A stretch of 64,000 nucleotides of DNA from Martelella lutilitoris (lineage in GTDB: Bacteria; Pseudomonadota; Alphaproteobacteria; Rhizobiales; Rhizobiaceae). The notes beneath the pieces were generated by a model that made no database searches, was not told where the DNA came from, and was given only the letters and a program-made list of their open reading frames with translations. Each line of letters begins with the position of its first letter. The stretch's first letter is position 1. The stretch spans positions 1 through 64,000 of the forward strand of contig NZ_VCLB01000001.1 in the NCBI RefSeq assembly GCF_005924265.1, given 5' to 3'. Shown here one piece after another: positions 12,960-51,222 of the stretch. The translations under genes were made by a program, and so were the position numbers.

Positions 12960-13778
12960 CTAATGGCCTTTTTGCGTCCCCAAGTCAAGGTCTGTTTGCT
13001 TGGGAACGGGTGCCCGGTGGTGGCGCATGAACTCCGGTTTCAGCGCCCTGATGCTGTTGCGCGGCACCGGCCAGCCGCCGTCATCGATCCTGAAGACCAT
13101 GCGGTAGCGCGAAAAGAAGATCGCGACCAGGTAGGTGCACCAGGCGCCGAAGGCGAGGCCCGCGATCACATCGCTCGGATAGTGCGCGCCGACAATGGTG
13201 CGGCACATGGCAACCGCCACGGCAAGACTGAAGAACAGAACGCGGTGGCGCGGCATGAAGAAGGCAGCGCAGGTGAAGATCGCCGCGATCGTGGTCGAGT
13301 GACCGGAGGGAAAACTGGCGAAATCGGCGTCGAACTGCATCGGGCTGAAGGAAAACGGCCCGAGATCATGAGCGAGCATGTTGGGGCGCGCCCGGCCGAT
13401 CGTGTTCTTGATCAGGGCAACGGCAATCCCGGAAAAGGCGATGGCCGCGAAGACGAAACTGGAAGCCTGGGCAAGGAAGACGCCCTTGGCGCGGGTGCGC
13501 CGGTCGCCGGTGCCGGCAGCGCCGAGACCGACGATGATGGCGAGGAAACTGACGATCAGGACCCAGTCCGACTTGCCGAAATCGGTCAGCAGGTTGCCAT
13601 ACCGGTGCAGGAGCGGATCAAGCTGCTTGCTCATGACCCCGACCGGATAGTCGAGGATCGCGAAGGCGACCAGAACCATCCCGGCCGTCCCGACGACAAA
13701 GCCGCGCCAGTGGTTGCACGGCCACTTCCGGTCTTTCACTTTCCGCCGCTGGCCGAACCAGCGATAAGGCACTGTCAT
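12960..13778 (-). CDS. PAP2-superfamily membrane phosphatase
   Basis: 272 residues with about six membrane helices. The three phosphatase motifs are visible: KNTIGRARPN (KX6RP type), FPSGHSTT (PSGH) and CRTIVGAHYPSDV (SRX5HX3D type, with Cys for Ser). The family removes phosphate from lipid phosphates, including undecaprenyl pyrophosphate. The start at 13778 has GGGGA five bases upstream; a longer frame reaches 13823. It is divergent from the polysaccharide operon that starts 443 bases away, so a link to lipid-carrier recycling is possible but not shown. Confidence 0.85.
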   Translation of the reverse strand: MTVPYRWFGQRRKVKDRKWPCNHWRGFVVGTAGMVLVAFAILDYPVGVMSKQLDPLLHRYGNLLTDFGKSDWVLIVSFLAIIVGLGAAGTGDRRTRAKGVFLAQASSFVFAAIAFSGIAVALIKNTIGRARPNMLAHDLGPFSFSPMQFDADFASFPSGHSTTIAAIFTCAAFFMPRHRVLFFSLAVAVAMCRTIVGAHYPSDVIAGLAFGAWCTYLVAIFFSRYRMVFRIDDGGWPVPRNSIRALKPEFMRHHRAPVPKQTDLDLGTQKGH

Positions 13779-14221
13779 CAAATCCCCGCAAATCCTCCTG
13801 CCCGGACCTGCGTCCGAACCCATGCGGGGGAAACCTAACCGAAAAACGCCGCGAACTCAACGCCGCCAGGGACTTCACCTTCCCGCCGGAGAACCCGACG
13901 ACCAAGGACGCGCGGACGAGGCAATTGCGGCGGCGGCCGAACCGACGCGAGGTCTCCGGAATATCGCCCGTCCCCAGCGTGTCGTTATCTATCTTGCACC
14001 CGCAGTAACGCCCAAACAGGCGCTTGTGCAGTCTCGCCATTGTTTGCGTAACCGATAATTAACCATGACCTACTAAAAATCATATCGAAAATGATCAGTA
14101 TTTCTCTGCTGCGCCGGTTCGTCCGGCAGTCCCGGGGGACGATCGTCAGCCAGGCGCTTCGTCAGTGCCGAATTCAGGAAACGGTGCTCGGTTGGGGCTG
14201 TGTGTTTAAGGAAAGCGTGTC
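13779..14221. other. divergent promoter region before the polysaccharide operon
   Basis: 443 bases between the PAP2 gene (minus) and wecB (plus). The half nearest wecB is AT-rich and holds TTAACCAT at 14059-14066, which matches the half-site used by rhizobial CtrA. A 44-codon frame (14091-14225) overlaps the wecB start by GTGA but has no convincing ribosome binding site. No RNA gene was recognised. Confidence 0.45.
14059..14066 (+). promoter_or_regulatory. possible CtrA half-site
   Basis: TTAACCAT within an AT-rich stretch 155 bases upstream of wecB, preceded by GTAACC. An 8-mer is weak evidence on its own. Confidence 0.25.
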
Positions 14222-15367
14222 GTGAAAGTCCTCTGCGTATTCGGTACCAGACCAGAAGCGATCAAGATGGCTCCGGTTGTCAACGCGGTTGCGCGCGACA
14301 GCGCTATCACGGGCGCAACCTGCGTCACGGGCCAGCACCGCGCAATGCTGGACCAGGTGCTCGATCTCTTCGACATCACACCCGATTACGACCTTGCGGT
14401 CATGGCGCCGAACCAGACGCTGAACAGCCTTACCAGCCGGGTCATTACCGGGCTCGACGCGGTTCTCGAGGAGGTGCGTCCCGATTGCGTGCTGGTTCAC
14501 GGCGACACGACATCGGCCATGGCGGCGAGCCTTGCCGCTTTCCACCGCGGGATAAAGATCGGTCATGTGGAGGCGGGGCTCAGGACCTACGACCTTTCCA
14601 GGCCCTGGCCGGAGGAGATGAACCGCCGGGTGATCGACGTGGTGTCATCGCTCGCCTTCGCGCCAACGGCTTCCAGCGCCGAGAACCTCGAGCGCGAACA
14701 TCTCGGCGGCCGCATCATCGTCACCGGCAACACGGTGATCGATGCGCTGACGGAAACGGCCGGCCGCATCGGCAAGGACGCAAGCCTTCGCAAAACGCTT
14801 GAAGAGCGGTTTTCCTTCATCAATCCCGCCCGCAGGCTGGTTCTGGTCACGGGGCACCGGCGCGAAAGCTTTGGCGGCGGCTTCGTCAACATCTGCAAGG
14901 CGCTGGCACGGCTTTCAGAACGCGACGACATCGAGATCGTCTATCCGGTGCACCTCAACCCGAATGTCTCGGGGCCTGTGCATGAACTGCTGGGCGCGCT
15001 CGAAAATGTCCATCTCATCGATCCGCTGGCCTATCTCGATTTCGTCTATCTGATGACGCGGGCCGATATCATCCTGACGGATTCCGGGGGCGTTCAGGAA
15101 GAAGCGCCCTCTCTCGGCAAGCCGGTTCTGGTGATGCGCGACGTCACGGAAAGGCCGGAGGCCGTGGCCGCCGGCGCCGTCATGCTGGTGGGAACGGAGC
15201 CCGAGCGGATCGTCACGGAAACCGAGCGGCTTCTGGACGAGGCAACGCACTACCAGAGCTTTGCCCGCGCCATCAATCCCTACGGCGACGGCAAGGCCGC
15301 CGGGCGCATTGCCGATACGCTTGCAGGACGGCCGGTCTCTCCCTTCGACCCGAGGGCGGCTCGATGA
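14222..15367 (+). CDS. wecB: UDP-N-acetylglucosamine 2-epimerase (non-hydrolysing)
   Basis: 381 residues with the WecB signatures GTRPEAIKMAPV at the N-terminus, HGDTTSAMAASLAAF and GHVEAGLRT near residues 97-120, and DSGGVQEEAPSLGKPVLVMRDVTERPE near 280. It interconverts UDP-GlcNAc and UDP-ManNAc in the cytoplasm. GTG start at 14222, preceded by AAGGAAAG. It is first in a five-gene operon whose next members build and export a polysaccharide, so it probably supplies UDP-ManNAc as the donor. In E. coli wecB is likewise required for the NfrAB-dependent glycan. Confidence 0.93.
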   Translation: MKVLCVFGTRPEAIKMAPVVNAVARDSAITGATCVTGQHRAMLDQVLDLFDITPDYDLAVMAPNQTLNSLTSRVITGLDAVLEEVRPDCVLVHGDTTSAMAASLAAFHRGIKIGHVEAGLRTYDLSRPWPEEMNRRVIDVVSSLAFAPTASSAENLEREHLGGRIIVTGNTVIDALTETAGRIGKDASLRKTLEERFSFINPARRLVLVTGHRRESFGGGFVNICKALARLSERDDIEIVYPVHLNPNVSGPVHELLGALENVHLIDPLAYLDFVYLMTRADIILTDSGGVQEEAPSLGKPVLVMRDVTERPEAVAAGAVMLVGTEPERIVTETERLLDEATHYQSFARAINPYGDGKAAGRIADTLAGRPVSPFDPRAAR

Positions 15368-15406
15368 TGAAACGATATGCCGAGAGCGCCGATGGGAGCT
15401 GACAAT

Positions 15407-17653
15407 ATGACCGTCCGGAAAAACAGTGCAGGCCGCAAAGCCACATTGTGCGTCGCCATCGGAAGCCTCTTGCTGCTTTCGGGCCAGACGACGACCGAAG
15501 CCGGCGACGTGGCCGATGCGATCCGCGCGCTCGGCGAAAGCGATGTCGTCACCCGCAAGGTCTCGCTGACCGACCTCGGCATCACGGAACCGCTCGCCTT
15601 CTCGGCCAACAGGGTCAACCGCGAAATCTTCATCCCCGTGCCGGCCGGCGTGCCGCTGATCGAGCCGAAACTCTTCTTTGACGGCACCCATCTGAGAGGC
15701 GACGGCGGCAAGACGACCTATATCCTCTCGCTCGACGGCTATGCCGTTGCCGCCCGCTCGCCGGAGGGCGAAAGGGGAAAGACGCAGTTCGACATCGGCG
15801 TTGACGGGTCGGCGCGCGAGGACGGATTCGTGCGCCTCGGCATTGCCTGGCAACCGCTGGTCGGGCAGTTCTACTGCTACGGCACCGGTCCGAACAGCAA
15901 CCGGCTCCTCGTTCATCCCGATACCTATCTGGAATACAGCTACAACGCCGCCGACCTCAAAACCGTCTCCAGCGCATTTGCCGCGTTCAAGCAGACCGTG
16001 ACGCTGCTGGTCGCCGGCAACGTGCTTGACAGCGACAGCTATGACGCGGCCTGGCGGCTGGGCGTGGCGCTGCAAAGAGCGGGCAAGACCCTGCAACTGA
16101 GGGCGCTGCCGGCGCGCGGCGATACGGTCGACGCCTCCGCCATCACCGTGCCCGCGGCGCTTGCAAGCGTCCCGGGCTTTGCCGCCTTCTCCAAGGGCGG
16201 TCTGGTCGAGATCGATGCCCCGGCACAGATCGGCGCGCTTCTCGTTCTCGGCGCAACCGACATGCAGGCGGACATCGCCATTGCCGGGACAAGCCTTTCG
16301 GCGGAAATCGACGCCGCGTTGAAGGCGATCGGTGCGGAACTCTCGTCTGCCGATCCGGATGCGGCAGAGGCATTCAAGGCGCTTGTCGCGGCGCGCGAGA
16401 CATTGTCGCTTCCCGTCGAGGCGGGCTCCTACAGCGTGCGCCTTGTCGGCGGTGAGCCGGTGCTCGCCGTGCAGCCGGACGGAGCCAGGGAGGCCGCCGG
16501 CCTTTTCAGCACGTGGTGGCGACGCACGGCGACCAGCGGCGACATGGTTATCCGCGCGGCGCGGTTGCCAATGGCCGACGGAGACGCGATGGCGCTGCTT
16601 CCGCCGGGGGATTCCGACAGCAATTTCAGCGTCGTCGGCCTCGGCGAATGGTCGACGACAGCCGATCTCGGCGGCGATATTCCGCCCGGCATGGTGCCGT
16701 CGGTCATTCATGTCTTCGTTTCCGCCGCGCCCGGCGCCACCGCAACGCGACCGGTGGCATCGGTCTTCCTCAACGACATGCTTCTCGGCGCCAAACAGCT
16801 TGAGGCCGATGGCATGCCGGAAGCGATTTCCGTTCCCGTTCCCGCCTATACGCTGCTGCCGAGCAATACGATCGTCGTGCGGGTCCAGCGCCAGCCGGCG
16901 CCCGGCGATTGCCAGGAATTGCCGCAGGGCTACCCCGTTTCGATCTCGCCCGACAGCTATGTCGAACTCGCGCCCGCCCCGGAAGCGGTCGATTTCTCGA
17001 GCGTCTCCGCCAGGCTTGCCGGCGACAGTCTCGTCGTCGTCAACAAGAGCTGGCTCGAAGACGCACTTACGACGCTGCCGAACGTGATCGTGCTGGCCGA
17101 TGCCAGCGGCATTGCGCCAGAGCGCGCCGACTTCAGCGTGGCCGACCGCGCCACCTATCCGGAGCCGGACAAGCCTTTCCTCCTCTTCGACGTGGCGGTG
17201 GAGGGCGTGCGCAAGCGCGCGAGCGTCGACGGCAATACCGTTCAGATCACGACCGCGAAGGGCACGACGCTGTTCGATGCTACCGGCCTGTCGGACATCG
17301 CCCTGTTGCAGGCGGAAACCGGCGGAGACGAGCCGGGCCTTACCTATTCGGCGGACGGCGTCGGGCCGCTGATCGAAAAGCCGCTCCGGCTCAGGCATGG
17401 CGATGTCGCCGTCATCGGGTCGGAGGGCGTTCTGGCCGAGGTCCGGACCAGCGGTCGGCCGCTGCCGAGCAATACCGAGCCCGATCGCCTGACCAAAAAG
17501 CCGTTCAGCTTCTCCTGGCGTCTGCTCACCGATACCGATTTCTGGTTCCGCCAGCTACCCGTCCTGATGACGGCGCTCATTCTCGGCGGCTTCGTCCTGC
17601 TCATGCTGCTTGCCCGCCTGGCCAAGCGGCGCAAGCGAGACGGCAAGAGCTGA
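15407..17653 (+). CDS. BcsB-like periplasmic subunit of a polysaccharide synthase
   Basis: 748 residues from the preferred start at 15407 (GGGAGC eight bases upstream; an earlier in-frame ATG at 15377 lacks this). N-terminal signal peptide (CVAIGSLLLLSGQTTTEAG), large beta-rich periplasmic region typical of BcsB (cyclic-di-GMP-binding regulatory protein family of cellulose synthases, a historical name), and one C-terminal membrane helix (VLMTALILGGFVLLMLLA) followed by a basic tail. In cellulose synthase BcsB clamps the inner-membrane catalytic subunit and guides the glucan through the periplasm. Here it is 17 bases upstream of an NfrB-like synthase. E. coli NfrAB loci are not known to me to include this subunit. 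Confidence 0.82.
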   Translation: MTVRKNSAGRKATLCVAIGSLLLLSGQTTTEAGDVADAIRALGESDVVTRKVSLTDLGITEPLAFSANRVNREIFIPVPAGVPLIEPKLFFDGTHLRGDGGKTTYILSLDGYAVAARSPEGERGKTQFDIGVDGSAREDGFVRLGIAWQPLVGQFYCYGTGPNSNRLLVHPDTYLEYSYNAADLKTVSSAFAAFKQTVTLLVAGNVLDSDSYDAAWRLGVALQRAGKTLQLRALPARGDTVDASAITVPAALASVPGFAAFSKGGLVEIDAPAQIGALLVLGATDMQADIAIAGTSLSAEIDAALKAIGAELSSADPDAAEAFKALVAARETLSLPVEAGSYSVRLVGGEPVLAVQPDGAREAAGLFSTWWRRTATSGDMVIRAARLPMADGDAMALLPPGDSDSNFSVVGLGEWSTTADLGGDIPPGMVPSVIHVFVSAAPGATATRPVASVFLNDMLLGAKQLEADGMPEAISVPVPAYTLLPSNTIVVRVQRQPAPGDCQELPQGYPVSISPDSYVELAPAPEAVDFSSVSARLAGDSLVVVNKSWLEDALTTLPNVIVLADASGIAPERADFSVADRATYPEPDKPFLLFDVAVEGVRKRASVDGNTVQITTAKGTTLFDATGLSDIALLQAETGGDEPGLTYSADGVGPLIEKPLRLRHGDVAVIGSEGVLAEVRTSGRPLPSNTEPDRLTKKPFSFSWRLLTDTDFWFRQLPVLMTALILGGFVLLMLLARLAKRRKRDGKS

Positions 17654-17670
17654 CCGGGCCGGGAGGAACC

Positions 17671-19854
17671 ATGGAGCTCTACTGGCCCTATCTGATCGCC
17701 GACTACTACCGGGTGCTGGAATATCTGACGGCCGCCGTCGCCGTCATCATTCTCGTCTCCTGCGTCGACGACCTGTTCATCGACGCCGTCTTCTACCTGC
17801 GCGCCATCAAGCGGCGCCTGACCGTCGAGCGTCGCTACAAGCCGCTGACGCCGGACCAGCTTTCCGGTCGTCCCGAACAGCATATCGCCATCATGGTGCC
17901 GGCATGGCTCGAAAGCGACGTGATCGCGGCGATGATCGAGGGCATGGTCGGCACGCTCGACTACCGCCATTACACGGTCTTTGTCGGCACCTATCGCAAT
18001 GATGCGGCGACCATCAACGAGGTGGAGCGCATGCGGCGGCGCTATCGCCAGCTTGTGCGCGTCGAGGTGCCGCATGACGGGCCAACCTGCAAGGCCGACT
18101 GCCTGAACTGGGTGGTTCAGGCGATCTTTGCCCATGAGGAGCGGCACGGCATTTCCTTCGCCGGCGTCATCCTGCATGACAGCGAGGATGTGCTGCACCC
18201 GCTCGAGCTGCGTTTCTTCAATTATCTCCTGCCGCGCATCGACCTCATCCAGATCCCGGTCAACTCGCTGGAGCGCCACTGGTCCGATCTCGTCGCCGGC
18301 GTCTACATGGATGAATTCGCCGAGTGGCACGGCAAGGATATCGTCGTGCGCGAGGCGCTCTCCGGCATGGTGCCGTCGGCCGGCGTCGGCACCTGTTTTT
18401 CGCGCAAGGCGCTGCTGACGCTTGCGGCCGAAGACAGCAACCAGACCTTCAACACCCAGACGCTGACCGAGGACTACGATATCGGCATGCGGCTTGCCGA
18501 ACACGGCATGCGCTCCATCCTCGCCCGCTTTCCGGTCGACTACCAGGTCAAGCGCAAGACCTGGTTCGGCTTCGGTCCCGAAAAGGACATGACCGTGCGG
18601 ATGGCGCTGTGCGTTCAGGAATATTTTCCCAATACCTTCCGCACCTCATACCGCCAGAAGGCGCGCTGGTCGCTCGGCATCTGCTTTCAGGGCTGGGCCT
18701 ATTTCGGCTGGCACGGTTCGCTCATCGACCGCTATTTCATGCTGCGCGACCGCAAGGGCATGGTCACCACCTTCGTGACCGTTTTCGCCTATGTTCTCGC
18801 GCTTCAATATATCCTGTTCCAGCTCGGCTTCACCTTCGGACTTCTTCCGGGCGGCTATCCGCCGCTCCTTGCCGTCGAAGGCTGGGTCGGGCTTGTCCTG
18901 ATCCTGAACGCCGTGGCCCTCTTCCTGCGCATCTCGCAACGCTTCTATTTCACCGCGCGCACATTCGGCTGGGAACACGGCCTCCTGTCCATCCCGCGCA
19001 TCATCGTCGGCAATTTCGTGAACTTCATGGCGATGGCGCGGGCATGGAACCAGTATCTCAACCACCTCTTCACCGGTAAACGTCTGGTCTGGGACAAGAC
19101 CATGCATGACTTCCCGACCGGCGACGGGCTGGTGGACCGGAAGACGAAACTGGGCGACCTTCTGGTCTCCTGGCACGCCATCAACGCCTCCCAGCTGGAA
19201 ACATCGCTTGCGGCGCAGAAAGCCCGGCGCGTGCCGCTCGGCCGCATTCTGCTGGACGAGGGCTGGCTCGAGGAGGACGTACTGGCGGAAGCCGTCGCCT
19301 TCCAGTCCGGCCTCGACCTGATCACCGTGACGGAAGAGGAACTGGTCGCCGCGCGCGACCGGTTCAGGCCGGATTTCCTGTTTGCCTACCGGGTTCTGCC
19401 GGTGATCGACGAGGAGAGCGACAGGCTGGCGCTCGCCACGTCCTTTCCGCTTGCCGAGGATGCGCTCGCGGCAATCGCCAGACGCCTCGGCTACGAGCCG
19501 CGCTATTTTGTCGTGCGCGACCGGGTGCTTGCCGGGGGCCTGCGCCTGCTTGCAGCGAAAGGCCGCGACAGGGAGCCCTCAAGAGAGGAACGTATCGAGG
19601 CCAATATTCCCCTGCTTGGCGAAATTCTGGTTGAAAACGGCGCGGTCTCCAATGACGCGCTGCAGAAGGCGCTTGTCGACTATCAACCCGAGCGTGACGG
19701 GCTGATCGGTTCCTATCTCGTCGACCGGGACGTCGTCTTCAGGGAGGCAATCGAAAACGCGCTCGAGGAGCAGCGCGCACGCATTGCCCGGGCGCGGGAA
19801 CGACAGGACGCCAGGCCGGACGTGACCGAAAGCGAAGAGGAGGCCCGGTCATGA
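17671..19854 (+). CDS. NfrB-like inner-membrane family 2 glycosyltransferase with C-terminal MshEN domains
   Basis: 727 residues (E. coli NfrB is of similar length). One N-terminal membrane helix, then a processive GT2 domain: aspartates in HDSED (170-173), TED (266-268) and QKARW (329-333, the QxxRW motif). Further membrane helices lie at about 360-450. The C-terminal third has no PilZ domain. Instead KLGDLLVSWHAINASQLETSL (from 493), with LGRILLDEGWLEEDVLAEA after it, and a second copy LLGEILVENGAVSNDALQKAL (from 648), match the MshEN c-di-GMP-binding pattern. The start at 17671 has GGGAGGAA. Donor is probably UDP-ManNAc from the adjacent WecB. Confidence 0.88.
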   Translation: MELYWPYLIADYYRVLEYLTAAVAVIILVSCVDDLFIDAVFYLRAIKRRLTVERRYKPLTPDQLSGRPEQHIAIMVPAWLESDVIAAMIEGMVGTLDYRHYTVFVGTYRNDAATINEVERMRRRYRQLVRVEVPHDGPTCKADCLNWVVQAIFAHEERHGISFAGVILHDSEDVLHPLELRFFNYLLPRIDLIQIPVNSLERHWSDLVAGVYMDEFAEWHGKDIVVREALSGMVPSAGVGTCFSRKALLTLAAEDSNQTFNTQTLTEDYDIGMRLAEHGMRSILARFPVDYQVKRKTWFGFGPEKDMTVRMALCVQEYFPNTFRTSYRQKARWSLGICFQGWAYFGWHGSLIDRYFMLRDRKGMVTTFVTVFAYVLALQYILFQLGFTFGLLPGGYPPLLAVEGWVGLVLILNAVALFLRISQRFYFTARTFGWEHGLLSIPRIIVGNFVNFMAMARAWNQYLNHLFTGKRLVWDKTMHDFPTGDGLVDRKTKLGDLLVSWHAINASQLETSLAAQKARRVPLGRILLDEGWLEEDVLAEAVAFQSGLDLITVTEEELVAARDRFRPDFLFAYRVLPVIDEESDRLALATSFPLAEDALAAIARRLGYEPRYFVVRDRVLAGGLRLLAAKGRDREPSREERIEANIPLLGEILVENGAVSNDALQKALVDYQPERDGLIGSYLVDRDVVFREAIENALEEQRARIARARERQDARPDVTESEEEARS

Positions 19855-22817
19855 AGGCTTTCCGGCCCTTCCCCTTGCTGATTGCCGCGGTCATGATCGT
19901 GCAGTCCGCAGCACCCGTTGCGGCGCAGGAGGCGACAGCAGGCGCCGCCACCGTCAGGATCGAATATCTGCCGCTCTCCGGCCCGCCGCTTCTTCTCTAC
20001 CGCAACGCCAGGCAGGCGCTGGCCGACGGCAATGCCGAACGGGCGATCGCGGACCTGAGGGAAGCGATCCGGCAAAGGCCGGATGCCGGCGAACTCAGAC
20101 TGGCGCTTGTGGAGGCGCTCCTCGCCGCAGGCCGTGACGGCGAAGCGCGGGAAGCGGCACTTCTTGCCGCCACCGATCCGGATGTCGACGCCGAAACCCG
20201 TCGTCAGCTTGCCGCCGAGGCCGCCGCGATCGAAGAGGAACCCGTTGCCGCAACGCCTGACCCTGCCATTGAGGCCTATCAGTCCGCCGACGCTGCCTAC
20301 CGCGCCTATGAGCGCGGGGATTTTAGCGCAGCGGTTGCGCTTGCCGAACGCGCTTTGGAGCGCGCACCCGACAATGGCGACTACCAGAGCCTTTTCGAAA
20401 ATGCAGTGGCCGCGCGCGATGCGGAGATTGCCCGGGAAGCGGCCGAGGAACAGACGGCTGAAGACGCGGCGGCAGCCTCCGAGGCGACAATCGATCCCGA
20501 GCTTGACGACGATGCCATTCGCCTCCTCGCCGAACGGGCCGCCGCCATCCGGGAAGGCCGCGCGCAAGAGGAAGCGGACGAAGACGCCGGCGAGATCGCG
20601 GCGGAGGACGCCCAGGACGCGCCCCTTTCCACCGACGACCCCGCCTACAAGGCCGCCGATACGGCCTATCGCGCCTTCGAGCGCGGCCAGTATGCCCAGG
20701 CCGTTGCCGCCGCCGAAGAGGCTGTCAGGCTGGCGCCCCGGATTGATGACTACCGAACCCTGCTCGACAATGCGAGAACCGCCCTTGCCGAGGAGCGGGC
20801 ACGACAGGCGGCCGCCGCTGAAGAAGCCAAAGCGGCTGAACCCGCACCGCCGGAACCGACCGGCGAACCGGGCCTCGACGCCGAGGCCATCCGCCGCCTT
20901 TCCGCGCGCGCTGCCGGCATCAGGCAGGAGCGGGACGGGCAGACGGAGCCGGCGACGGAAAGCCCTGTCGCGGCGGCGGCGGAAGCGCCTCCTGCCGAAA
21001 CTCTCCCCGCAACCGAGGACCCCGCCTACAAGGCCGCGGATGCCGCCTACCGCGCCTATGAGCAAGGCGAATACCGCAAGGCCGTCATCAATGCCGGAGA
21101 CGCCGTCCGGCTTGCGCCCGACAATGACGACTATCGAGCGCTTCTAGACAATGCCGAAAAGGCCCTGGCGGAGATGAAAGCGAAAACGGCCGCCGCCTCG
21201 CCGGCGGCAAGAGCCGCCGAAAAGGCCTATGCGGCGCTGAGGCGCGATGATCCGCAAGCAGCACTTGGGCCCGCATGGCAGGCCGCGCGCCACGCGCCCG
21301 ACAATCGCTCCTACCAGGTGCTGCTGGTCGATGTCCTCAATCGCAACGGCGACCGGGAGGACGCGCTGCGCGTCGTCGATGCGGCGATTGCCCGCTTCGG
21401 TCCGAACCGCACCCTGCTCAGCCAGCGCGGCGTCATCCGGCAGGCGCTCGGCGACCAGACCGGCGCGCTCGCCGATTTTCAACAGGCGCTCGCTTTGCCG
21501 GGCGAAACTGCGGATGAGACCGATCTACGCCTCAACCTTGCCGCGGCGGCCATGGCGACGGATGCGCCCGAAACCGCCTATCAGGCGCTCATGCCCCTCG
21601 GCGACAGCCCGGATGCCGCCGTCTGGCTGGCGCGGGCAAAAGCGTTGACCGCCATGGAGACCTTCACCGCCGCCGCGACCGCGCTTGAGCAGGCGGAGAG
21701 GCTGGCAAAGGGCGAGAGGCAACAGGCGGATGTCGCCATTGCCGGGCTCGACCTGCTGATGGCCGAAGGCGAAAGCCGGCGCGCCCGCACGGGCCTGCAC
21801 GCCGCCGCCGAGGACGGCGTTCTCGCGCCGATCGGCCCGACGGAAACGGCCTATCTTGCCGCCCGCCTCGGCGACCGCGCGCTTGCCTATGACGCCTTCA
21901 GCGAGGCCTATCAGGCAGGCTCCCTTGACGGCAACCAGCTGATTGATGCGGCCTATGCCGCAAGGCGGGATTACCACAACGAGGATGCGGTCTCCTGGCT
22001 GAAACAGGCGATCGACGAAGTGGATGCCGGCAGGCTCTCCCTGTCGCCGGAAGGGCTTTTCGGCCTCAGGCGCGAGGTCTCGGATATCTCCCGGCGCTGG
22101 GGCGCCAATATCGGTCTGTTTTATGGCAGCACCGGCATTTCCGACGGCTACATCACGCCGCCGGCTTCTGCCGGGCGCAGCATGCAACTCGGCTCGGAAA
22201 TCTTCTGGCGGCCGCCGGTCATCGGCTACCGGGACGGACGCACGGTCGATCTCTTTGTCCGCCAGTTCACCACGGTTTACGATTCGCTCGGCGGCGCGGT
22301 CGGGTTATCGACCATGCAAGGCGCGGCGGGCGTGCGCGTCAAGCCGTTTACCAATCTCAACCTGGCGCTGGAGGCCGCGCGCTATTTCAAGGTCGGGCGC
22401 TACAGCCGCGACGACACGCTGGTGCGGGCCGCCATATCGGACGGGTTCAACACCGACCTGATGCCCGGCTCGGATGCCTGGTGGACGGGCTGGTATTATG
22501 GCGAGGCGGGACGCTATTTCGACAGCGACGAGGATTTTGCCCTGGCGAATGCGAGCCTTGGTCGCAGCTTCTCGCTCAACGACGACGGGACCCTTATCGT
22601 GACGCCCTATATCGGCATCGCGGCCGACTACAACGACACCTATGCGACGGAGTTCGCGCTGGGCGCGGGACCGGGGATCAACCTGCGCTACTGGTTCCGC
22701 CAGACGACGTACGAAGCGCCGATGTCGCATATCGATATCAACGGCCAGTACCGGGCAAGGCTCGGCGGCGATGACAGGGCGCGCGGATGGTTCGCTTCCC
22801 TCAACCTCATGATATGA
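19851..22817 (+). CDS. NfrA-like outer-membrane TPR/beta-barrel polysaccharide exporter
   Basis: 988 residues, essentially the length of E. coli NfrA. Signal peptide ending APVAAQ near residue 25. A TPR-rich periplasmic region contains three long repeats starting at D137, D263 and D390 (period about 126 residues; core DPAYKAADxAYRAxExGxY...AVRLAP). The C-terminal part from about residue 750 has alternating aromatic beta strands ending in an NfrA_C-type segment (INGQYRARLGGDD...). NfrA is the outer-membrane receptor of phage N4 and is thought to be the export pore of the NfrB-made glycan. ATGA overlap with the synthase gene. Ala/Glu-rich linkers between repeats look disordered. Confidence 0.85.
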   Translation: MKAFRPFPLLIAAVMIVQSAAPVAAQEATAGAATVRIEYLPLSGPPLLLYRNARQALADGNAERAIADLREAIRQRPDAGELRLALVEALLAAGRDGEAREAALLAATDPDVDAETRRQLAAEAAAIEEEPVAATPDPAIEAYQSADAAYRAYERGDFSAAVALAERALERAPDNGDYQSLFENAVAARDAEIAREAAEEQTAEDAAAASEATIDPELDDDAIRLLAERAAAIREGRAQEEADEDAGEIAAEDAQDAPLSTDDPAYKAADTAYRAFERGQYAQAVAAAEEAVRLAPRIDDYRTLLDNARTALAEERARQAAAAEEAKAAEPAPPEPTGEPGLDAEAIRRLSARAAGIRQERDGQTEPATESPVAAAAEAPPAETLPATEDPAYKAADAAYRAYEQGEYRKAVINAGDAVRLAPDNDDYRALLDNAEKALAEMKAKTAAASPAARAAEKAYAALRRDDPQAALGPAWQAARHAPDNRSYQVLLVDVLNRNGDREDALRVVDAAIARFGPNRTLLSQRGVIRQALGDQTGALADFQQALALPGETADETDLRLNLAAAAMATDAPETAYQALMPLGDSPDAAVWLARAKALTAMETFTAAATALEQAERLAKGERQQADVAIAGLDLLMAEGESRRARTGLHAAAEDGVLAPIGPTETAYLAARLGDRALAYDAFSEAYQAGSLDGNQLIDAAYAARRDYHNEDAVSWLKQAIDEVDAGRLSLSPEGLFGLRREVSDISRRWGANIGLFYGSTGISDGYITPPASAGRSMQLGSEIFWRPPVIGYRDGRTVDLFVRQFTTVYDSLGGAVGLSTMQGAAGVRVKPFTNLNLALEAARYFKVGRYSRDDTLVRAAISDGFNTDLMPGSDAWWTGWYYGEAGRYFDSDEDFALANASLGRSFSLNDDGTLIVTPYIGIAADYNDTYATEFALGAGPGINLRYWFRQTTYEAPMSHIDINGQYRARLGGDDRARGWFASLNLMI
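20637..21170 (+). repeat. tandem coding repeats in the nfrA-like gene
   Basis: The stretch GACCCCGCCTACAAGGCCGC occurs at 20637 and again at 21018, 381 bases apart, and a diverged third copy starts at 20259. Each unit encodes a TPR pair followed by an Ala/Glu-rich linker. This is domain duplication within the gene, not a mobile repeat. Confidence 0.75.
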
Positions 22818-23695
22818 CCCGCCGCCTGCTCAGGGTCCTGCCGGCCGTGCTCTTGCTGGGCGGCGCCTTTCTTCTGGGGCGCTTCCTCATCCTGTCGCCC
22901 GGCCACCGCGCGGCGCCTGTCGACGGGCCGGTCACCGGCATCGTCTGGCAGGTCGATGACGCGACCGCAAAACCCGAGGGCGAATGGCAGCGCCTCGGCG
23001 CGGACCATCTTCTCATCCAGTGGATCGTTGTCGACGATATCGGTTTTGCCCGCGGCACCGGCGGGAAGGCGCCAACCCAGATGCCCGACTGGCGGCGCAT
23101 TGCCAAAGAACCCTGGGCCCGGCACGTCACCCTCGGCCTTGCCGGCGATTTCGACGAGAAGAAAGCGCGGGCAAATGTGTTGCAGCTGGCAAAGACTTCG
23201 GCCGCCCTTGCAGGCAGGAAACCGCCGCTCGAGATTGAAGGCTATTATTTCCCCGTTGAGGTCGATCCGACCTGGAAGGAAGCGGCAGAGGTGATGCCGA
23301 AGGCGCTTGCCCTTCTGCCGCGCCCGCTCTGGATCAGCGTCTACGACAACAGCAATATCGGCGGCGAGGCCCTTGCCGACTGGCTATCGACCTGGCTGCC
23401 GGCAGATGTCGGCGTCTTCTTCCAGGACGGCGCCGGCGTTACGGCGCGTTCCCCGCAGACGGCGCGCGACTATGCCGACGCGCTTGCCGCAAGCCTCGGC
23501 AAGGATCGCCTGCGCATCATCACCGAAGCCTTCCGCCCTCTGCCCAACGGCGGCTTCCGGCCGGCGACGGTCGAGGAACTCATGCCCCAAATCACCCTCA
23601 TGCAGGGCTATGACCTCTACCTCTTCGACGGCCCGCATTACCTCGACGACAAGCTCGTCGATGCGCTTGTGAAGGCTTTTGACGCGCATGAATGA
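22814..23695 (+). CDS. signal-anchored putative glycoside hydrolase (DUF4434-like TIM barrel)
   Basis: 293 residues, start fixed by ATGA overlap with the nfrA-like stop. N-terminal signal/anchor (LPAVLLLGGAFLLGRFLIL), then alternating beta/alpha segments typical of a TIM barrel: ITGIVWQ, HLLIQWIVVD, VTLGLAGDFDEKKA, EIEGYYFPVEVD, LWISVYDNSNIGGEAL, VGVFFQDGAGV, RIITEAFRP, DLYLFDGPHYLDD. Glutamates in EIEGYYFPVE and ITEAFRP are candidate acid/base and nucleophile. The fold resembles DUF4434 proteins, which are hydrolase-like. As last gene of the operon it may trim or release the exported polymer in the periplasm. Family call is moderate. Confidence 0.65.
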   Translation: MTRRLLRVLPAVLLLGGAFLLGRFLILSPGHRAAPVDGPVTGIVWQVDDATAKPEGEWQRLGADHLLIQWIVVDDIGFARGTGGKAPTQMPDWRRIAKEPWARHVTLGLAGDFDEKKARANVLQLAKTSAALAGRKPPLEIEGYYFPVEVDPTWKEAAEVMPKALALLPRPLWISVYDNSNIGGEALADWLSTWLPADVGVFFQDGAGVTARSPQTARDYADALAASLGKDRLRIITEAFRPLPNGGFRPATVEELMPQITLMQGYDLYLFDGPHYLDDKLVDALVKAFDAHE

Positions 23696-50043: not shown

Positions 50044-51222
50044 ATGCCAGCGCTGCCTTTTTCCAGATCCGAATATGACCGCCGCCTGGCGCTGACCCGC
50101 AAGGCCATGGAAGCCGCGGGCCTCGATGTGCTGGTTGTCACCGCCCCTGCCGGCATGAACTGGCTGACCGGCTATGACGGCTGGTCCTTTTACGTCGACC
50201 AGGCCGTTCTGGTGACCCCCACCGGCATGCCGTTCTGGTGGGGCAGGCTGATGGATGCCAACGGCGCGCGCCGCACCTCCTATATCGATGAAGACCATAT
50301 CATCTATTATGCCGACCGCTATGTGCAGGCCGCCGACTGCCACCCGATGGACGACCTTGCCGACAAGATCCGGGAACTCGATCATGGCAAAAACCGCATC
50401 GGCGTGGAGATGACCGCCTATTACTATTCAGCGGCCGGTCACAAGGCGCTCGTCGCAGGACTTCCCGACGCGACGATCATTGACGCTTCCGGCCTTGTCG
50501 ACTGGCAGCGCGTGGTCAAGTCGGACGAAGAAATCGCCTTCATGCGCAAGGCGGCGAGGATCTCCGACAAGGTGATGTCGCATGCCATGGAGATCGCCGA
50601 GCCGGGCATGAAGAAAAACCGCTTCGTCGGCGAACTGATGAAGGCGGCAATCGACGGCGTTGATGACGCCTGGGGCGACTATCCCTCCATCATGCCGCTT
50701 CTGCCCTCCGGCGCCGATGCCTCCGCCCCCCACCTCACCTGGAACAGCGATGAATTCCGCATGGGCGAGGCGACCTTCATCGAGCAGGCGGGCTGCTATC
50801 GCCGTTACCATGCTCCGCTGTCGCGCACGATCTTCTTCGGCGCGCCGCCGGACCACATGAAGGCCGCCGCCGATGCCGCCGTTGCCGGGCTCAATGCGGG
50901 CATCGAGGCGGCCAAGGCCGGAAACCGCGCCGGCGATATCGCCGCCGCCATGGAACGGGAACTCTGGAAGGTCGGCATCGAGCGGCCGAACCGCTGCGGC
51001 TATGCCACCGGCCTTGCCTATCCGCCCGACTGGGGCGAGCACACGGTCTCCATCCGCACCAGCGATGACACGCTTTTGAAGCCGGGCATGACGCTGCATT
51101 TCATGCCAGGCCTGTGGATGGACGACTGGGGGCTGGAAATCACCGAGACCATCCTCATCAAGCAGGACGGCCCGGCCGAGGCGCTCTGCAATATCGAACG
51201 CAAGCTGTTCGTGAAAGGCTGA
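50044..51222 (+). CDS. M24-family ectoine hydrolase-like enzyme (DoeA/EutD)
   Basis: 392 residues. N-terminal creatinase-like domain (RLALTRKAMEAAGLDVLVV, TGYDGWSFYVDQAVLV), then the M24 pita-bread domain. Segments characteristic of DoeA as I remember it include GDYPSIMPLLPSG, APHLTW, FIEQAGCYRRYHAPLSRTIFFG, and YPPDWGEHTVSIR. DoeA opens the ectoine ring to N-acetyl-2,4-diaminobutyrate. GAGGGA precedes the ATG. Its neighbours (deacetylase, aminotransferase) are what the pathway needs. Xaa-Pro peptidase is the alternative, but the shared segments argue for DoeA. Confidence 0.8.
   Translation: MPALPFSRSEYDRRLALTRKAMEAAGLDVLVVTAPAGMNWLTGYDGWSFYVDQAVLVTPTGMPFWWGRLMDANGARRTSYIDEDHIIYYADRYVQAADCHPMDDLADKIRELDHGKNRIGVEMTAYYYSAAGHKALVAGLPDATIIDASGLVDWQRVVKSDEEIAFMRKAARISDKVMSHAMEIAEPGMKKNRFVGELMKAAIDGVDDAWGDYPSIMPLLPSGADASAPHLTWNSDEFRMGEATFIEQAGCYRRYHAPLSRTIFFGAPPDHMKAAADAAVAGLNAGIEAAKAGNRAGDIAAAMERELWKVGIERPNRCGYATGLAYPPDWGEHTVSIRTSDDTLLKPGMTLHFMPGLWMDDWGLEITETILIKQDGPAEALCNIERKLFVKG

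Follow-up and report, generated by a model that had tools for sequence, protein, structure and literature searches.

An Nfr-type exopolysaccharide operon with a BcsB-like subunit predicted in Martelella lutilitoris

Described NGR-type systems and the Martelella locus

In Escherichia coli, the N4 glycan receptor (NGR; PMC8669472) is linked to a gene row consisting of nfrB, nfrA and ybcH. According to PMC8669469, infection by phage N4 requires NfrB activity, the NfrB site for cyclic di-GMP (c-di-GMP) and WecB; c-di-GMP binds NfrB, nfrBA-ybcH is under FliA control, and Nfr systems occur occasionally in alphaproteobacteria. Clustered homologues of NfrA, NfrB, WecB and BcsB were reported from Achromobacter in 2021 (PMC8669472). 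The Acinetobacter PGR locus, described in 2025, contains homologues of NfrB, BcsB, WecB and the PgaB C-terminus as well as an outer-membrane pore; deletion of pgrD (BcsB) abolished phage adsorption, a pgrF (WecB) point mutant was phage resistant, and both were complemented (PMC12507263). In this study, we analyzed a stretch of 64,000 nucleotides from Martelella lutilitoris (contig NZ_VCLB01000001.1, positions 1 to 64,000; hereafter the window), in which five genes at 14222-23695 encode WecB, a BcsB-like protein, NfrB, NfrA and a YbcH-like protein. We consider it highly probable that they form an Nfr/NGR-type synthase-dependent exopolysaccharide operon in its BcsB-bearing form.

Like the E. coli NGR, the locus encodes a glycosyltransferase family 2 (GT2) synthase that has an MshEN domain and matching catalytic and c-di-GMP-site residues, an NfrA_C exporter with tetratricopeptide repeats (TPRs), a likely YbcH counterpart and WecB, whereas BcsB is absent from the operon of E. 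coli, E. coli wecB belongs to the enterobacterial common antigen operon, and E. coli NfrB falls into a different clade of the NfrB tree. Judged from the published description, the five-component gene content matches that of the Acinetobacter baumannii PGR locus, to which Acinetobacter adds PgrA, a diguanylate-cyclase-like protein lacking the GGDEF motif (PMC12507263). Five Achromobacter loci that we fetched (L126-L128, L133 and L136) show the order wecB-bcsB-nfrB-nfrA, and the four of them kept in our tree share the NfrB clade of the window, but the published Achromobacter cluster has periplasmic O-acetyltransferase homologues (PMC8669472), none of which is found among the five genes of the window. 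With the Bcs cellulose complex, the locus shares the predicted BcsB fold and a processive GT2 enzyme expected to be activated by c-di-GMP, and it differs in that MshEN, NfrA and the YbcH-like protein stand where the Bcs complex has PilZ, BcsC and BcsZ, respectively.

PgaA is an outer-membrane exporter with TPRs, as NfrA of the window appears to be, and the YbcH-like barrel resembles the fold of the PgaB C-terminal domain. An operon for poly-N-acetylglucosamine was nevertheless rejected: the synthase scored 17.5 bits against the PgaC model TIGR03937 (cut-off 422), and the five operon proteins gave no match to a deacetylase (PgaB).

An initial annotation of this DNA had proposed an NGR-like, c-di-GMP-gated secretion operon combining NfrAB with a BcsB subunit, a combination thought to be uncharacterized in Rhizobiales. 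The operon itself is supported by family scores and fold, and c-di-GMP gating is probable by inference. The claim of novelty was mostly lost to the Achromobacter and Acinetobacter reports and stands for Rhizobiales within the literature searched, where no study of a rhizobial copy was found; passages of PMC12633290 and PMC6467409 merely cite E. coli NfrA/NfrB and give no rhizobial or Pseudomonas example. Closely similar machines are known as phage receptors in other bacteria, so the locus adds a good example to an existing kind of system. What goes beyond the prior papers is a YbcH-like barrel with invariant glutamates on strands 4 and 7 and a CtrA-like box in 9 of 18 BcsB-type alphaproteobacterial loci. 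Such compact operons may help in determining the polymer, the contribution of BcsB to an NfrB synthase and the enzyme status of YbcH. Phages of E. coli and Acinetobacter use glycans of this kind as receptors, so the presence of the operon might also be a predictor of phage sensitivity in its hosts.

Components of the operon and a proposed mechanism

WecB, NfrB and NfrA were placed by profile hidden Markov models. WecB scored 463 bits against TIGR00236 (cut-off 210) and is the sole match to this model in the genome, which fits the wecB-nfrB linkage reported for cases with no other WecB pathway (PMC8669469); production of uridine diphosphate N-acetylmannosamine (UDP-ManNAc) would follow from its family. 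As had been proposed, the synthase was placed with NfrB (NF012033, 1011 bits; cut-off 537), although it stays below the cut-off of NF008411, the model that bears the NfrB name (633 versus 1170 bits). The window protein has the NfrB-type GT2 motifs DxD, TED and QxxRW. Its proposed MshEN region was borne out by PF05157 (27.1 bits; cut-off 23.1) and by NF053729 (85.5 bits; cut-off 38), the latter in two stretches, and weak Protein Data Bank (PDB) matches were obtained to the c-di-GMP-binding domains of MshE and PilF. Changing D169, D267, W330, L490 or G491 of E. coli NfrB causes loss of function, and L537 was mutated jointly with L490 (PMC8669469). The first five residues correspond to D170, D268, W333, L494 and G495 in the window, and L537 is replaced by V542. 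Taken together with the E. coli analogy, these matches suggest that NfrB is probably gated by c-di-GMP via MshEN.

The exporter likewise proved to carry the predicted NfrA_C domain (PF13283, 161.5 bits; cut-off 25) and is the only NfrA_C match in the genome. Several TPR matches were obtained, one at the cut-off and the rest below it, and a signal peptide was called by eye. Three TPR-type units lie about 125 residues apart in this protein (marker at 149, 272 and 399); the same pattern occurs twice in NfrA of the congeneric locus L037, once in L036 and L038, and not in L032-L035, and NfrA length ranges from 714 to 988 amino acids across eight congeneric copies.

The BcsB-like and YbcH-like calls needed structure prediction because their family scores fall below cut-off. 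The BcsB-like protein scored 14.1 bits against Pfam BcsB PF03170 (cut-off 21), so that by score it is no member of this family, and PDB sequence searches with the single sequence or with a 12-row profile returned nothing. The structure model (12-row alignment; mean predicted local distance difference test score, pLDDT, 66) was read as having an N-terminal hydrophobic segment, two halves each with a jelly-roll and a flavodoxin-like part, and a C-terminal membrane helix, and its top 22 PDB structure matches are all BcsB or cellulose-synthase-complex chains (E 2.2e-18 to 9.1e-12). In a profile-profile comparison with hhalign, a 95-sequence profile (the window protein and 94 relatives) aligned with 13 cellulose-type BcsB proteins over 93 columns (E 1.2e-4, probability 55), compared with E 0.28-0.59 for control profiles of NfrA, YbcH and WecB. 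The BcsB subunit proposed earlier is thus upheld by fold and not by the Pfam cut-off, and we read the protein as a divergent BcsB on a low-confidence fold.

One Pfam BcsB above cut-off was found in the genome, on contig C11, where it adjoins a PilZ-bearing BcsA; this cellulose-type bcsA-bcsB pair occupies 308521-313052 of the contig (8521-13052 of the fetched stretch L141). Because this pair sits elsewhere in the genome, the BcsB-like protein of the operon is not taken to be the cellulose subunit. A further pairing of BcsB with a GT2 in the same order was seen at loci L055 and L056, where a BcsB-like gene adjoins the gene of a GT2 of about 610 amino acids without MshEN columns.

The last gene had been regarded as a hydrolase added to the E. 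coli scheme. This idea was rejected, because the protein is, by place and alignment, the likely counterpart of YbcH, already part of E. coli nfrBA-ybcH: it shares 22% identity, invariant residues and the same operon place. Its family scores are below cut-off (DUF4434, 18.8 bits versus 30; PRK09936, 34 bits versus 344), and PDB sequence searches gave no convincing match. The structure model (8-row alignment, pLDDT 86) shows an N-terminal helix at residues 7-34 followed by a strand-helix barrel pattern in which eight main strands were counted. The fold is matched best by the putative fucosidase 4h41 (E 2e-7); matches were also obtained to a GH18-like protein, to the PgaB C-terminal domains 4p7q (E 3.8e-4) and 6au1 (E 8e-4) and to many further TIM barrels. 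E158, where strand 4 ends, and E247, which closes strand 7, are glutamate in 81 of 81 aligned rows (the 81- and 121-row alignments contain near-copies). In retaining hydrolases of clan GH-A, the glutamates occupy these positions. The proposed hydrolase activity thus finds backing in the TIM-barrel fold and these glutamates and none in the profile scores; we infer a membrane-anchored putative glycoside hydrolase with E158 and E247 as candidate catalytic residues. It should be noted that E. coli YbcH was called a putative periplasmic scaffold with an auxiliary role (PMC8669469), so that the hydrolase reading exceeds the published view.

A route for the glycan can be proposed from these parts. 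WecB would convert UDP-N-acetylglucosamine (UDP-GlcNAc) to UDP-ManNAc, which NfrB may polymerize at the inner membrane while pushing the chain out, a substrate suggested by E. coli genetics; as in E. coli, c-di-GMP would switch the synthase on or off. Anchored through the helix at its C-terminus, the BcsB-like protein may cap NfrB and guide the chain across the periplasm, much as cellulose is guided by BcsB, and NfrA, with its TPRs and outer-membrane domain, would export it. The inner-membrane-anchored YbcH-like barrel may trim or free chains in the periplasm. Some of the alphaproteobacterial copies have a CtrA-like box, which suggests that their transcription is tied to the cell cycle or to motility. 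The polymer probably forms a thin glycan on the cell surface and, by analogy with E. coli and Acinetobacter, is likely a phage receptor; that it is a ManNAc polymer under c-di-GMP control is presumed from the homologous systems.

Table 1. Features of the predicted operon in the window
Feature	Position	Strand	Description	Basis
wecB (nfrC)	14222..15367	+	non-hydrolyzing UDP-GlcNAc 2-epimerase	TIGR00236
BcsB-like gene	15377..17653	+	putative periplasmic subunit	structure model, weak profile link
nfrB	17671..19854	+	inner-membrane GT2 synthase with C-terminal MshEN	NF012033, NF053729, PF05157
nfrA	19851..22817	+	TPR repeats and C-terminal NfrA_C outer-membrane domain	PF13283
YbcH-like gene	22787..23695	+	putative glycoside hydrolase	TIM-barrel model, YbcH alignment
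Candidate CtrA-like box	14048..14067	+	20-bp block about 174 bp upstream of the wecB start	

The place, order and strand of the five genes (Table 1) agree with the initial annotation. The operon span stands as first given and the start of nfrB does not: the mechanical open reading frame (ORF) begins at 16909, whereas the homologous part starts with the ATG at 17671, which gives 728 codons including the stop. Gaps of 9 bp (wecB/BcsB-like gene) and 17 bp (BcsB-like gene/nfrB) are followed by overlaps of 4 bp (nfrB/nfrA) and 31 bp (nfrA/YbcH-like gene).

Distribution and descent of the BcsB-bearing form

Conservation of the gene order was surveyed in named genomes by a scan with the NfrB alignment, in which the nearest 80 of at least 573 relatives were analyzed; the counts therefore apply to close relatives of the query rather than to NfrB as a whole, and loci broken by contig ends were scored as misses. 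The exact order wecB-bcsB-nfrB-nfrA-ybcH recurs in 46 of these 80 loci, and for this reason it is not due to chance. The consecutive order wecB-bcsB-nfrB was found in 70 and BcsB in 77. The loci without BcsB are two from Collimonas (L092 and L124), in which nfrB directly follows wecB, and L066, which has a lone nfrB. L066 is a Brucella endophytica record with a single open nfrB-like frame and no match to wecB, bcsB, nfrA or ybcH in the fetched stretch.

The nearest named NfrB row is labeled 'Marinicella sp. W31', and the next in the tree are from a Rhizobiales bacterium and Paenochrobactrum. Genera among the nearest 80 include Paraburkholderia, Caballeronia, Pseudomonas, Achromobacter, Stenotrophomonas, Xanthobacter, Microvirga and Herbaspirillum, by which a restriction of the operon to Rhizobiales was rejected; no Acinetobacter record was present among these 80.

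In the quick NfrB tree of 94 rows (thinned by dropping any named locus with over 75% of 5-mers in common with one already kept, and by omitting L055-L057), BcsB was scored as present when a match of at least 100 bits lay in the fetched stretch. Seventy-one BcsB-bearing rows and two without (L066 and L124) make up one side of a branch with an approximate likelihood ratio (SH-aLRT) support of 95, and E. coli NfrB groups with six other BcsB-less rows (100). Three changes suffice for the BcsB label on this tree, compared with a mean of 20.9 after shuffling (0 of 500 shuffles as low). Deep placements are unsure because of several long branches. From these sequences, the BcsB-bearing form of NfrB appears to be essentially one lineage separate from the E. 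coli type, the direction of gain or loss being unpolarized. E. coli Nfr is apparently only one branch; another, which bears BcsB and for the most part keeps its gene order, is found in alpha-, beta- and gammaproteobacteria.

A BcsB-like match was obtained in 7 of 297 genomes of the order, three of them weak, and NfrA_C in 8 of 61 relatives, all within the window's genus (13 genomes, including the window's own). In two draws that share some genomes, 385 from the class and 398 from the phylum, an NfrB match at E <= 1e-60 was obtained in 15 and 33 genomes, of which 10 and 14, respectively, were above cut-off. All seven other congeneric carriers have wecB-bcsB-nfrB-nfrA, and four also have ybcH. 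In three of them (L036-L038), the operon lies at the same site as in the window, adjoining asd and the PAP2 phosphatase gene. The stretches fetched from the other four lack these flanks, and the pair of PAP2 and asd is found elsewhere in their genomes.

Nine congeners lack the operon at this site, and eight of them (L202-L209, not L201) have a second PAP2-like gene beside the first (12960-13823 in the window), in the place that the operon takes in the window. This arrangement suggests replacement or rearrangement, so that no clean insertion junction could be defined. The alphaproteobacterial family f64 has many shorter glycosyltransferases of NfrB-like type that lack MshEN columns and match over about 430-480 residues (L049-L051, L178 and L179). 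Of these five loci, L178 has WecB and NfrA, and no match to WecB, BcsB or NfrA lies near the other four.

Competing readings and a CtrA-like box upstream of wecB

The operon might make another polymer, for example one of GlcNAc or of mixed units, with the UDP-ManNAc from WecB contributing only a minor unit or going into a different glycan. Substrate specificity is unreadable from a GT2 sequence, and a structure of the E. coli polymer does not appear in the passages of PMC8669469 and PMC8669472; however, wecB stands directly ahead of bcsB-nfrB in the 70 near loci mentioned above, the operon copy is the only wecB found in the genome, and E. coli and Acinetobacter genetics link WecB to the NfrB or BcsB phenotype (PMC8669469, PMC12507263), so that we regard another polymer as unlikely. 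A divergent cellulose synthase operon is suggested by the BcsB fold of the periplasmic subunit and by the annotations of plasmid homologues, three of seven of which read 'cellulose biosynthesis ... BcsB' and one 'cellulose synthase'. This reading was rejected as extremely improbable, given an NfrB-type synthase with MshEN and not a BcsA with PilZ, the genuine BcsA(PilZ)-BcsB pair elsewhere in the genome and an epimerase for which cellulose synthesis has no need. For the YbcH-like protein, a non-catalytic chain-binding scaffold is a serious alternative that we nonetheless rate below a hydrolase: the E. coli work terms YbcH a putative scaffold and non-essential (PMC8669469), the best sequence scores belong to families of unknown function and the fold matches include many unrelated TIM-barrel enzymes, but the invariant strand-4 and strand-7 glutamates follow the arrangement of many retaining hydrolases, and a putative fucosidase, GH18-like proteins and PgaB hydrolase domains are among the best fold matches. 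Several points weigh against the Nfr/NGR-type reading or its details. UDP-ManNAc as the substrate was itself inferred in E. coli, no purified polymer appears in the passages of the E. coli papers (PMC8669469, PMC8669472), and no diguanylate cyclase was found in the flanking ORFs scanned (three, then ten). The BcsB-like model is of low confidence, with TM-scores of 0.31-0.42 to its best matches, and BcsB is missing from the E. coli operon and the two Collimonas loci and is therefore inessential to the scheme. YbcH is missing in three of the seven congeneric loci (L033-L035), and E. coli ybcH is dispensable for phage N4 infection (PMC8669469); a trimming role would therefore be optional.

Transcription of the predicted Nfr/NGR-type operon was approached through its upstream region, where a sigma-70 promoter scan found no site near wecB. 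The consensus of the CtrA site is TTAA-N7-TTAAC. The 20-bp block listed in Table 1 contains GTAA-N7-TTAACCAT, one base off this consensus, which we take to be a candidate CtrA-like box. The block is identical in the window and L036-L038, has two mismatches in L059, and is absent from the nine PAP2 stretches of congeners without the operon there (L201-L209), which indicates that it goes with the operon. Whether the box is a chance or lineage-inherited match and no CtrA site is, in our judgment, evenly balanced. Within the window, one CtrA-like match was found against 0.88 expected by chance, and one copy of the 8-mer TTAACCAT against 0.23, so that a match there is unremarkable. When 300 bp upstream of wecB were searched with at most one mismatch, the box was present in 9 of 18 hand-picked BcsB-type alphaproteobacterial loci (the window, L032-L039, L052-L054, L059-L062, L101 and L106), compared with a shuffle mean of 0.67 and a maximum of 5 in 200 (mean 0.71 and maximum 4 in a repeat), and with one locus per lineage it was present in 5 of 11 (mean 0.55, maximum 3). 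None of 299 draws of permuted half-sites reached nine loci, and the carriers include different genomic sites, with the box at -159 to -208; these results argue against chance. In favor of chance, the box is absent from the other nine BcsB-type loci (L033-L035, L039, L054, L060-L062 and L106) and from all eight usable alphaproteobacterial NfrB loci that have wecB and no BcsB (L041-L047, L174 and L178, of which L043 was too short), and the nine carriers include four near-copies that share one site. In a scan of spacers from 3 to 13, spacer 7 was strongest, but spacer 6 likewise yielded five loci (three of them near-copies), and the others gave 0 or 1. Among named non-alphaproteobacterial loci (71, of which 64 were usable; L078, on the same contig as L054, was excluded), 7 of 64 had the box against a shuffle mean of 3.81, and as 17 of 200 shuffles were as high, there is no clear enrichment in this group. 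The box is accordingly offered as a lead for predicted CtrA control, not as proof. A fuller proposal, that part of the Alphaproteobacteria make a CtrA-timed ManNAc-type polymer with c-di-GMP as a second gate and an anchored hydrolase releasing chains, is speculative and seems doubtful to us; if true, it would describe a cell-cycle-timed adhesin or phage receptor, in parallel with the FliA control of E. coli nfr.

A comparison of two of the proteins with PHROGs gave no match. At 50970-51070 of the window, ARAGORN called a tRNA-Thr (agt) that was unreported by Rfam at the gathering score and is probably false. The PAP2 phosphatase gene and asd are divergent upstream neighbors of the operon, and downstream of it the opposite strand carries a short-chain dehydrogenase/reductase gene, parts of an ATP-binding cassette transporter and a LysR regulator.

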